Below are positions 49,206 to 52,692 of a stretch of 64,000 bases of DNA, piece by piece. The stretch is taken from NCBI GenBank assembly GCA_016779485.1, contig JADHNN010000001.1, forward strand, positions 66,681 through 130,680. Direction: 5' to 3'. A program made the position numbers and the translations under genes. This stretch comes from Gammaproteobacteria bacterium. Its GTDB lineage: Bacteria > Pseudomonadota > Gammaproteobacteria > GCA-002705445 > GCA-002716945. The first letter of the stretch is position 1, and every line of letters begins with the position of its first letter. The notes beneath the pieces were generated by a model. The model was not told the DNA's origin. It did not search any database and was given only the letters and a program-made list of their open reading frames with translations.

Positions 49206-50483
49206 TTATTGCTCAGGGTAAACTGAAGGTTTAATGCCTGTAGCTTTACTAAATTCTGGGTATGCTTCTAATCCACACTCAGATATATCTACACCATCTT
49301 GTTCTTCTTCTTCTGTTACTCTTAAACCGAAGAACATTTTTATGATGTACCAAACAATTACACTTGTAATAAATGTCCAAAGTATAATCATTGAAGCGCC
49401 ATAAATTTGAGCTCCAAGAGATCCGCCAGTAAGAGTTACTGCGAGTAATCCCCAAATACCACATGTTCCATGTGCAGATATTGCACCAACAGGATCGTCT
49501 ATTCTCATTTTATCAAGCATGACGATAGACATTACTACTATCAATCCACCAATTGCACCAATGATTAAAGCAAGTCCTGGTGTTGGAGCTAATGGTTCAG
49601 CTGTAATTGACACCAAGCCTCCTATAGCGCCGTTTAATGCCATTGTAAGGTCAGATTTACCGAACATTAGTTTGGATAATAATAATGCTCCCATGACGCC
49701 ACCAGCTGCTGCTAAGTTGGTATTTACAAATACCATAGATACAGCATTAGCCTCTGCAACATTGGAAATGATTAATTCAGATCCACCATTAAATCCGAAC
49801 CAACCTAACCATAAAATAAATGTACCAAGGGTAGCAAGTGGGAGGTTAGCTCCTGGCATAGCGTTTACTTTGCCGTCTGTATATTTACCTTTTCTTGCAC
49901 CTAGAACAAGTACACCAGCTAAAGCTGCAACTGCGCCGCATAGGTGTACCACACCAGATCCAGCAAAGTCAGAAAAACCAGCTTCGTCTAAGAAGCCGCC
50001 GCCCCATTTCCAATAACCTTGAACTGGGTAAATAACACTTGTCATCACTACACAAAATAGTAGAAATGGCCATAGTTTCATTCTTTCCGCTACTGCTCCT
50101 GAAATAATTGAACAGGCTGTTGCTACAAATACTACTTGAAAGAAATGATCTGATATTGATGAGTAATAAACATCTCCACCACTCGCGATCACAGCCTCAG
50201 CTGTATTGTCAGCACCTAGAAAAAATGATAGCTCAGGAATGACACCTGTGCCTCCACCTGGATACATTAAATTGTATCCGACAATCATATACATGATCAC
50301 TGATATTGAATATAACGATATATTTTTTGTAAGAATTTCAGCTGTATTCTTTGCTCTAACAAGACCAGATTCTAACATGGTAAAACCTGCAGCCATCCAC
50401 ATGACAAAGGCACCCATGACTAGAAAATAGAATGTATCTAAAGCATAAGCAAGTTCAATTACTTTACCTTCTAAAGCTTCCAT
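49206..50483 (-). CDS. amt: Ammonium transporter
   Basis: The 425-residue membrane protein has 11 predicted helices and the Amt marks: FVMWMAAGFTMLESGLVRAKN near the start, the pore His in VVHLCGAVAALAG and the second pore His in AHGTCGIWG. There is no cleavable signal peptide or fused domain. Its start has AGGAG with good spacing. It is downstream of glnK, 27 bases away, in the usual glnK-amt pairing where GlnK closes the channel when nitrogen is ample. The cluster head carries sigma-54 and NtrC-type sites (see 51669-51833). Confidence 0.96.
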   Translation of the reverse strand: MEALEGKVIELAYALDTFYFLVMGAFVMWMAAGFTMLESGLVRAKNTAEILTKNISLYSISVIMYMIVGYNLMYPGGGTGVIPELSFFLGADNTAEAVIASGGDVYYSSISDHFFQVVFVATACSIISGAVAERMKLWPFLLFCVVMTSVIYPVQGYWKWGGGFLDEAGFSDFAGSGVVHLCGAVAALAGVLVLGARKGKYTDGKVNAMPGANLPLATLGTFILWLGWFGFNGGSELIISNVAEANAVSMVFVNTNLAAAGGVMGALLLSKLMFGKSDLTMALNGAIGGLVSITAEPLAPTPGLALIIGAIGGLIVVMSIVMLDKMRIDDPVGAISAHGTCGIWGLLAVTLTGGSLGAQIYGASMIILWTFITSVIVWYIIKMFFGLRVTEEEEQDGVDISECGLEAYPEFSKATGIKPSVYPEQ

Positions 50484-50510: not shown

Positions 50511-50849
50511 TTAAAGAGCTTCTGGACCTTTTTCTCCGGTACGAACACGTATTGCTTCTTGAATATCAAGAACAAAAATCTTTCCATCACCAATTTTACT
50601 AGTACTAGCAGATGACAAGATAGTCTCAATTGTTTGATCAACAAGGTTATCATTAACAGCAATTTCAAGCTTAATTTTCGGTAGAAAATCAACCACATAT
50701 TCAGCACCTCTATAAAGTTCCGTATGGCCCTTTTGTCTTCCAAACCCTTTTACTTCAGTTGCGGTAATTCCAGTGACCCCTATTCCTGATAGAGCTTCTC
50801 TTACCTCATCTAATTTAAATGGTTTGATAATTGCTATTACTAATTTCAT
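50511..50849 (-). CDS. glnK: PII nitrogen regulatory protein (GlnK/GlnB family)
   Basis: The 112-residue trimeric PII protein has the T-loop [19 protein letters not shown] with Tyr51, the site of uridylylation, and the B-loop [20 protein letters not shown] that binds ATP/ADP. Being next to amt argues for GlnK over GlnB. No clear Shine-Dalgarno sequence precedes it. It is 39 bases downstream of the porin gene and no terminator separates them, so all three genes may share the sigma-54 promoter. Confidence 0.95.
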
Positions 50850-50888: not shown

Positions 50889-51572
50889 TTAGAAACTATA
50901 CCCTAAAGTAAAGTTTGCATATGTTGAATCGTCGTTGTCTTCAAGACCAGTAGCATGACTAGTATCAATATTTCTTCCAACCATAAGTCCAACATCAACT
51001 CCACTTACTGTCATTCCATAATGAAGTTCATGGTTATGTCCTGTTATTGCCTCACCAGTCCATGTTTGGTATTGGTAATCAATCGGCAGACCAACAAAAG
51101 ATAGTGGAACTGTAATTGTATAATGCTGATAACCTTGATCACCTGCATCAAGTTGATATTCGCCATCAATAGCTGCATCAATAGACATAAAGCCCATATC
51201 AGCACCTATATTTATTTCTTGGTAATCACTATCGAAGTTATCTGAATAGTAATATCCAGTAAAACCAGCGTACATTGGAACACCCATTAATGAGAAGTTA
51301 TATCCGCCATAGATATCATACTCTACGCCTTTATCAACATCTGCCCACCATGTGCCAATATAGAAATTACCCATTTCAGCATCAGCACCAAAACTCACTG
51401 ATGATTCTGACATATAGTATCCTCTATACCAATATTCAGACATGTAACCTATGTTATAGCTTACCGCGCTGCTTGACTCATCTGCAACTGCTTCACCGGC
51501 TTGTGCAAACATTGATATTGACATCAACGCTGCTAAAGCAACAGATAAAGATGATTTAATTATTTTTTTCAT
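50889..51572 (-). CDS. TorF-like outer-membrane porin (Gcw_chp family)
   Basis: The 227-residue protein has a signal peptide (MKKIIKSSLSVALAALM to AQAGE) and a body of alternating beta strands rich in Tyr, Trp and Gly, ending in aromatic Phe (FTLGYSF) as outer-membrane barrels do. NIGYMSEYWYRGYYMSESSVS and YDIYGGYNFS match the TIGR02001/Gcw_chp family of putative porins. A strong GGGAG ribosome site precedes the ATG. It heads the unit porin-glnK-amt, so it may help ammonium or small nitrogen compounds cross the outer membrane; that is inference from position and promoter. Confidence 0.82.
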   Translation of the reverse strand: MKKIIKSSLSVALAALMSISMFAQAGEAVADESSSAVSYNIGYMSEYWYRGYYMSESSVSFGADAEMGNFYIGTWWADVDKGVEYDIYGGYNFSLMGVPMYAGFTGYYYSDNFDSDYQEINIGADMGFMSIDAAIDGEYQLDAGDQGYQHYTITVPLSFVGLPIDYQYQTWTGEAITGHNHELHYGMTVSGVDVGLMVGRNIDTSHATGLEDNDDSTYANFTLGYSF

Positions 51573-51668
51573 TTATATCTCCCTTTCGTAAAATGGTTAT
51601 ATTATTTAGTTATTTTGTGATAGTCGACATTTATCAATGACAAATAGTAAAGCTATCAATAGTAGATA

Positions 51669-51684
51669 TGCATAAACTGTGCCA
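51669..51684 (-). promoter_or_regulatory. Sigma-54 promoter (-24/-12) of the porin-glnK-amt unit
   Basis: The minus strand reads TGGCACAGTTTATGCA. The invariant GG and GC are exactly 10 bases apart, as sigma-54 requires; only the first base of the -12 box (A for T) and the base after TGGCAC differ from the TGGCACG-N4-TTGCW consensus. Transcription would start near 51659, giving an 87-base leader before the porin ATG at 51572. Confidence 0.72.
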
Positions 51685-51702
51685 ACTGTTAATATTACTG
51701 TT

Positions 51703-51719
51703 TACACCTGAAATGTGAG
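51703..51719. promoter_or_regulatory. Possible weak NtrC site
   Basis: TACAC-N7-GTGAG has the right 17-base span for NtrC but three mismatches to TGCAC-N7-GTGCA. It is about 45-60 bases upstream of the predicted sigma-54 start. NtrC sites often come in a strong and a weak pair, which is why I note it. Confidence 0.3.
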
Positions 51720-51816
51720 TGTTTCTCTAATAACATTGGAAATATGATATATTAATAATACAAGTAGTAAAGTAAACTTTTATAAAATTATTTATAATCA
51801 ACATAAGAGTTAAATT

Positions 51817-51833
51817 TGCACAAAAAATGTGCA
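51817..51833. promoter_or_regulatory. NtrC-type enhancer site
   Basis: TGCACAAAAAATGTGCA is a perfect TGCAC-N7-GTGCA palindrome, the core of the NtrC consensus in enteric bacteria. It is about 160-175 bases upstream of the predicted start of the porin transcript, a usual enhancer distance. It is also only 3 bases before the divergent ubiK start codon, so bound protein could block ubiK. Confidence 0.6.
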
Positions 51834-51836
51834 TGA

Positions 51837-52073
51837 ATGGAGTGCAAAGTGAAAAATAATAGATTTAAAGAATTGGTAGAGGGTATTTTAAGCATAATCC
51901 CTAAAAATACCGAAACTATGAAAGATGACATAAAAGATAATCTTAAAATTCTCTTAAATGATTATCTTAGAAAAATAGATGTAGTTACAAGAGAGGAATT
52001 TGATGTCCAGAGAGAGGTTCTTTTAAAAACCAGAAAAAAATTAGAGGACTTAGAAGATAAATTAAATAAATAA
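51837..52073 (+). CDS. ubiK: UbiK family ubiquinone biosynthesis accessory factor
   Basis: The 78-residue protein is of the YqiC/BMFP type: an amphipathic N-terminal helix (FKELVEGILSIIP) and a C-terminal coiled coil with REEFDVQREVLLKTRKKLEDLEDKL. UbiK binds UbiJ and helps the soluble ubiquinone synthesis complex. The ATG at 51837 lies right after the NtrC-type palindrome; a GTG four codons later (51849) is an alternative start. ubiK next to glnK-amt is also seen in Pseudomonas. It converges on the cytochrome c5 gene with a one-base gap. Confidence 0.85.
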   Translation: MECKVKNNRFKELVEGILSIIPKNTETMKDDIKDNLKILLNDYLRKIDVVTREEFDVQREVLLKTRKKLEDLEDKLNK

Positions 52074-52618: not shown

Positions 52619-52692
52619 GCGTCTGTAGCTCAGTTGGATAGAGCGTTAGCTTCCGAAGCTAAAGGTCAGAAGTTCGAATCTTCTCAGGCGCT
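52619..52692 (+). tRNA. tRNA-Arg (CCG)
   Basis: A 74-base cloverleaf: acceptor GCGTCTG/CAGGCGC with one G-U pair, D-arm AGCTCAGTTGGATAGAGC, anticodon stem TTAGC/GCTAA with loop TTCCGAA giving CCG, and T-arm AGAAG-TTCGAAT-CTTCT. It reads the CGG codon, rare in such AT-rich DNA. The discriminator base is T, unusual for arginine tRNAs, and CCA is not encoded. Its last nine bases overlap the end of folD on the other strand. Confidence 0.94.

Follow-up and report, generated by a model that had tools for sequence, protein, structure and literature searches.

The region described here is an intergenic gap within the window (the whole stretch of 64,000 nucleotides that was analysed) of a genome from an uncultured marine gammaproteobacterial family whose other members are known from single-cell genomes and MAGs of approximately 1 Mb each. 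The host genome comprises 911,577 bases in 12 contigs, is 90% complete and has a G+C content of 31%. On one side of the gap, genes encoding a TorF-like outer-membrane porin, the P-II protein GlnK and an ammonium transporter follow one another on the minus strand, in the order given in the original prediction (Table 1). The spacing amounts to 39 nt between the porin gene and glnK and to 27 nt between glnK and amt, and a search of these two gaps for terminator-like sites returned none; a single transcript covering the three genes is predicted. On the other side lies a divergent ubiK gene, followed by a cytochrome c gene, downstream of which a tRNA gene was observed at 52619-52692 (plus strand). 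The ubiK start is probably the GTG at 51849 and not the ATG at 51837, as the relatives carry an ATG at the same place with a GGAG ahead of it. The gap consequently measures about 276 bases instead of the 264 first reported, and the second of the two NtrC dyads overlaps the ubiK ribosome site, which means that NtrC might act on ubiK as well.

Table 1. Genes and predicted regulatory features at the porin-glnK-amt locus (positions in the window)
Feature	Position	Strand	Remarks
amt, ammonium transporter	49206-50483	-	425 aa; Pfam and NCBIfam; TIGR03644 marine subtype, 645.7 bits
glnK, P-II protein	50511-50849	-	112 aa; clear in Pfam and NCBIfam
TorF-like outer-membrane porin, first gene of the unit	50889-51572	-	227 aa; TIGR02001, 42.1 bits
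Probable mRNA leader hairpin	51618-51658	-	starts close to the predicted +1; folding energy -11.1 kcal/mol (z -1.2)
Predicted sigma-54 (-24/-12) promoter	51669-51684	-	TGGCACAGTTTATGCA; GG-N10-GC; 1 mismatch to TGGCACN5TTGCW
Perfect NtrC dyad, TGCAC-N7-GTGCA	51817-51833		TGCACAAAAAATGTGCA; 0 mismatches
Second NtrC dyad	51830-51846		TGCATGAATGGAGTGCA; 1 mismatch; overlaps the first at a 13-bp pitch, half-site in common
ubiK (BMFP)	51849-52073	+	start moved from ATG 51837 to GTG 51849

The gap carries the two elements expected of an NtrC-activated promoter. The sigma-54 site foreseen on the minus strand is present, with its GG-N10-GC core in a TGGCAC/TTGC-like -24/-12 context, and would place the transcription start near 51658. 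The perfect palindrome, which had been put about 160 bases upstream of the start, is centred approximately 167 bp upstream of it, about 150 bp from the promoter. No other exact TGCAC-N7-GTGCA occurs among the 911,577 bases of the genome; when a single mismatch is tolerated, the pattern is found at seven places, two of which are the overlapping pair at this locus. A weaker dyad copy had also been proposed between the palindrome and the promoter. The corresponding sequence, CTCACATTTCAGGTGTA, does exist at 51703-51719; with three mismatches and no conservation in the relatives, it was rejected as a genuine NtrC site, and the second dyad lies on the far side of the perfect one. In the 64-kb window, TGGCAYN6TGCA was observed once against 0.21 expected, so that the strict sigma-54 pattern alone is not overwhelming; position and conservation supply the weight.

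Within the bacterial family, a relative of the porin was identified in 22 of 25 genomes, and the gene order cytochrome c-ubiK/porin-glnK-amt is near-universal where the contig permits. All 21 family porin-glnK-amt loci bear the sigma-54 site, 66-120 bp ahead of the gene, and 19 of them have an NtrC dyad with no more than two mismatches (14 perfect), while loci G009 and G010 show the sigma-54 site and no recognisable dyad. Six paralogous porins located elsewhere in the family genomes have neither element. At the genus level the alignment reveals a clear footprint, in which the dyad pair, the sigma-54 site and the transcribed leader are conserved against a drifting spacer; the overlapping pair with its 13-bp pitch is kept in six of the seven genus members. 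Both types of site are thus retained among relatives.

The proposal that this streamlined genome has kept rpoN and ntrC was confirmed. The rpoN gene is situated ahead of ptsN, and glnA-ntrB-ntrC are present, the last encoding one full NtrC-type activator with an AAA+ sigma-54 domain, located behind ntrB and glnA. The other match to the sigma-54 activator domain is weak (19.5 bits, below the cut-off) and belongs to an 800-aa protein. NtrC is therefore the single convincing sigma-54 activator in the genome, and all sigma-54 promoters should answer to it. It was found in 22 of the 25 family genomes (E < 1e-50), and the remaining three are incomplete assemblies.

Genome-wide, the sigma-54 pattern with at most one mismatch occurs at 19 places, 18 of them coding; the one at 51669-51684 is intergenic and upstream of a gene. 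Intergenic GG-N10-GC sites with up to two mismatches number four, namely ahead of porin-glnK-amt, glnA-ntrBC, a gene for a DUF2721-like membrane protein (139 aa, the name being assigned by eye and not via a family search) and a sulfate-permease-like gene, where the candidate is weak. Five copies of the clade consensus TGGCAYN6TGCA were counted in the genome, and three of these are intergenic promoters conserved in relatives (porin-glnK-amt, glnA-ntrBC and the DUF2721-like gene). The glnA-ntrBC promoter candidate has the same two elements as the porin locus, its GG-N10-GC being accompanied by NtrC-like dyads, and is conserved in 23 of 23 family loci. A relaxed genome scan yielded no further candidate with dyads; ORFs were called from the most upstream start, and a promoter under an over-long ORF could escape the scan. 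These results suggest that RpoN may serve only about three promoters, glnA-ntrBC, porin-glnK-amt and the small DUF2721-like membrane protein, such that marine bacteria whose genomes measure only about 1 Mb would keep a whole sigma factor for so few targets. Regarding the third of these, the DUF2721-like gene (about 140 aa; G000:C11:371-547, L227; relatives L228-L233 and L236) has the sigma-54 site in five genus members and three other relatives, and no NtrC dyad was recognisable before it in L227 and these relatives. In genome G015 (L236), this gene is divergent from amt.

With the regulators present and the sites conserved, control of the porin together with glnK and amt is well supported, as is the original prediction that the porin belongs to the nitrogen-starvation response. 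We estimate a probability of about 0.9 that the sigma-54 promoter in the gap is real and activated by NtrC, and that it drives the three genes together, as a single transcript of the nitrogen-starvation response.

The association extends well beyond the family. TIGR02001, the TorF family of putative porins, is represented in 145 of 276 genomes drawn from Gammaproteobacteria, and 90 TorF-like porin loci were read as a class sample. The porin lies ahead of glnK-amt in 48 of the 90 loci. Named examples of the arrangement with glnK come from Thioalkalivibrio, Polaromonas and HTCC2143; in the OM182/K189A group, comM-like and ubiK genes stand between the porin and glnK. A sigma-54 site precedes 43 of the 48 glnK-amt-linked porins, an NtrC-like dyad with no more than two mismatches precedes 45, and 40 have both. 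The porins away from glnK show a sigma-54 site in 22 of 42 cases, in 16 of them together with an NtrC-like dyad. Named examples of the porin alone, with a sigma-54 site, come from Neptuniibacter, Pontibacterium and Colwellia. Control scans for the sigma-54 site returned 0 of 90 loci with the reversed pattern and 0-4 of 90 with shuffles. The reversed dyad control gave 8 of 90, so the dyads alone are less telling than the sigma-54 site. Judged from these counts, nitrogen control is not universal for TorF-like porins, since barely more than half of the members away from glnK bear the site. A sigma-54 site of their own is nevertheless frequent in TorF-like porins far from glnK (L289, L292, L318 and L321 in the class sample; Oceanospirillaceae L125-L140), and in some of them it matches the full consensus.

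The spacing of NtrC dyads across the class is of two kinds, 13 bp (overlapping) and 29-33 bp. The latter is the usual one, and overlapping dyads sharing a half-site were seen in the window and in about ten class-sample loci from many lineages. The distance of about 150 bp between dyad and promoter in the window exceeds the usual 80-125 bp, which counts against the promoter reading, as do the two family loci lacking a recognisable dyad. The papers searched contained no statement that connects TorF-like porins with NtrC across the class. Nitrogen control of porin-glnK-amt is thus a widespread rule and not a novelty of this genome, and its class-wide extent is new here. Widespread 'putative porins' that had no assigned function become a testable part of the gammaproteobacterial nitrogen-starvation response.

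When compared to known systems, the arrangement is ordinary in kind and well founded, with a precedent in Herbaspirillum seropedicae. There, the nlmA-glnK-amtB operon has the same order of a membrane-associated protein, glnK and amtB, is NtrC-dependent and rises 21-fold under nitrogen limitation, while NlmA itself was detected in membrane extracts and was regarded as periplasmic and of unassigned function (PMC3023670). Our comparison of NlmA with the TorF-like porin is one of operon position, not of sequence. NlmA would very probably be a putative member of the porin family, because in Burkholderiales a porin relative occupies that place before glnK, with a sigma-54 site, in Polaromonas L145 (a TIGR02001 member, 133 bits) and Comamonadaceae L152. 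In Escherichia coli, glnK-amtB and glnA-ntrBC likewise have a -24/-12 promoter with upstream NtrC dyads; unlike in E. coli and other bacteria, a porin gene comes first in our locus and the regulon is apparently cut down to about three promoters. The TorF family shares its name with torF of Shewanella oneidensis (SO4694), which is listed as an outer membrane porin of the TMAO reductase system (PMC5955497). The likeness is one of name and listing, and the S. oneidensis gene is grouped with genes of TMAO respiration rather than those of nitrogen assimilation.

The window porin matches TIGR02001 with 42.1 bits (E 7e-11), below the curated cut-off of 47.15, and is therefore called TorF-like only, although the aligned relatives L094, L109, L116, L125, L127, L142 and L145 pass that cut-off. 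A Pfam search at E 0.001 returned no family for it, and porin relatives were not found in plasmids. The AlphaFold2 model built with 40 relatives shows, with good confidence (mean pLDDT 83), a barrel that has 12 main strands and the features of an outer-membrane beta-barrel, namely a signal-peptide-like N-terminal helix (residues 2-22), an even number of strands and a C-terminal F. The best fold matches are KdgM (Z 16.8, rmsd 2.7 over 159 residues) and VhGalP (Z 15.2 over 182 residues), which share the predicted 12-strand porin fold at 12-14% identity; the resemblance is one of fold and we do not claim KdgM family membership. Known KdgM-type porins handle acidic sugars, while the window porin is itself strongly acidic, with about 27 acidic against 3 basic residues in the mature protein (net -24), and is the most acidic per length among 700 genome ORFs of at least 180 aa. 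The model is consistent with a cation-preferring pore and does not single out ammonium. Acidity is common to the whole porin family and no stronger in the glnK-linked members, and as a mark of the latter it was rejected.

A second line of evidence comes from phages. A scan of IMG/VR identified 15 contigs encoding a porin 43-49% identical to that of the window. Across contigs L329-L343 and L354-L370, T4-like marine phages carry amt and a TorF-like porin as a pair lacking glnK, with only one of the two genes seen on some contigs. In 13 of them amt is situated directly before the porin without glnK (e.g., the pair at L330:690-2558), and in two the porin occurs alone. The phage Amt is 78-84% identical where the alignment is long. 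The neighbouring genes are T4-like, encoding a gp32-like single-strand binding protein, a gp59-like loader and an exonuclease, and the position is that taken by Mosig_00151 in Pelagibacter phage Mosig, flanked by homologues of Mosig_00152 and Mosig_00150. In the porin tree the phage proteins form one clade within the 26-row clade of the bacterial family (100/100), and in the Amt tree one clade within its 20-row clade (100/100). Because both genes branch inside the family clades, the phages very probably took both amt and porin from this bacterial family, which they may infect. Against named phages, the phage porin had no match and the Amt matches were less than 60% identical. Viruses of ocean oxygen-minimum zones are known to carry glnK-amtB-ompL and glnK-amtB cassettes (PMC8115048), which are likewise marine viral ammonium transport genes, one type with a beta-barrel porin. 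Those differ in having a porin of Flavobacteriales origin and glnK, whereas the T4-like phages described here have a gammaproteobacterial TorF-like porin, no glnK and their own leader. In the papers searched, no viral cassette was found that pairs amt with a TorF-like porin and lacks glnK; this cassette, like the near-minimal sigma-54 regulon, is new here.

The leader shared by the phages comprises about 60 bases, and is nearly identical in 20 contigs (L330:604-690, L335:3640-3724 and 18 others). It stands before amt-porin, before the porin alone, or before an amt for which the examined stretch shows no porin match. It folds with a z of about -2, and a GGTG/CACC pseudoknot, picked out by eye, may compete with base pairing between CACCT and the ribosome site GAGGT. 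The leader is a candidate regulatory RNA. A search of Rfam at E 1 gave no match, and the leader is absent from the 25 bacterial family genomes. The amt-porin pair supports a joint uptake role of porin and Amt, serves as natural evidence that the two work together and provides a gene set for viral metatranscriptomes. A more tentative reading, which we regard as possible and short of probable, is that the porin would be the outer-membrane half of a two-membrane route for ammonium (or a small nitrogen compound) under Ntr control, and that the phages took the pair, dropped the brake GlnK and added their own RNA leader, in which a possible pseudoknot would expose or mask the ribosome site, thereby forcing nitrogen uptake in infection.

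For the bacterial unit, we propose the following mechanism. When nitrogen is short, NtrB phosphorylates NtrC, as is established for these protein families, and NtrC would bind the overlapping dyads about 150 bp upstream and loop to the RpoN-polymerase at the -24/-12 site, and the transcript would begin at the predicted start with a small hairpin. At the inner membrane, GlnK would gate Amt as it does elsewhere among bacteria, and the porin would raise the permeability of the outer membrane so that high-affinity uptake is not limited there. That the porin serves ammonium or other small cationic or neutral nitrogen compounds in this manner has, in our judgement, slightly better than even odds, a role made more likely by the class-wide linkage, the acidic 12-strand barrel and the phage amt-porin pair without glnK. 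Should the porin be limiting for the capture of ammonium at the concentrations found in the ocean, permeability of the outer membrane would be a selected step in the competition for nitrogen.

Other explanations differ in how much of this they leave standing. It is very improbable that the matches in this AT-rich gap arose by chance and that the unit is driven from a sigma-70 promoter: single sites do arise by chance, as the 18 coding matches among the 19 in the genome indicate, and sigma-70-like hexamers are also present in the gap, but these are no commoner than in shuffles, and chance accounts neither for conservation at every family locus nor for the class-wide signal over its controls. 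The chance reading of the gap sites was accordingly rejected on position and conservation. The promoter could be real and the porin a passenger: a general or structural protein of the outer membrane that plays no role in nitrogen uptake and whose gene precedes glnK-amt by coincidence. About half of the TorF-like porins away from glnK do lack a sigma-54 site, and the assignment of Shewanella torF to the TMAO system (PMC5955497) indicates that the family serves other systems. We nevertheless consider a passenger unlikely, given that its order before glnK-amt persists across the class (48/90), that porins away from glnK have their own sigma-54 site in 22 of 42 cases, with an NtrC-like dyad too in 16, and that phages retained the porin with amt and without glnK.

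A reading that we regard as doubtful, though less so than the passenger, is that the porin admits another nitrogen compound, such as amines, urea, amino acids or small peptides, and that amt recovers the ammonium which this compound yields. Being small, ammonium usually passes through general porins, so larger molecules would seem to benefit more from a pore of their own; KdgM and VhGalP, whose fold the porin shares, take oligosaccharides. The TMAO link of Shewanella TorF (PMC5955497) points in the same direction, and an NtrC-influenced porin of Burkholderia cenocepacia is reported to carry biological amines (PMC10117139, PMC5491218). However, the partner kept in both phages and bacteria is Amt and not an amine or urea system. 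The B. cenocepacia amine porin presumably belongs to another porin family.

The hairpin region at the 5' end of the predicted mRNA is strongly conserved in the genus, and the position of the hairpin is retained in most of the family, with arms that differ yet match. With the arms matched by hand across the family, 53 of 60 cells were paired, a value reached by 0 of 2000 shuffles; for the count of pair types, 112 of the 2000 shuffles did as well, and this measure is not significant. RNAalifold gave no consensus structure on the MAFFT alignment of the leader, and the bacterial leader had no match in Rfam. On this mixed evidence, the hairpin is likely. The ompA mRNA has a 5'-terminal stabilising stem-loop, and by analogy this is the likeliest role that the hairpin would play in the porin-glnK-amt mRNA.
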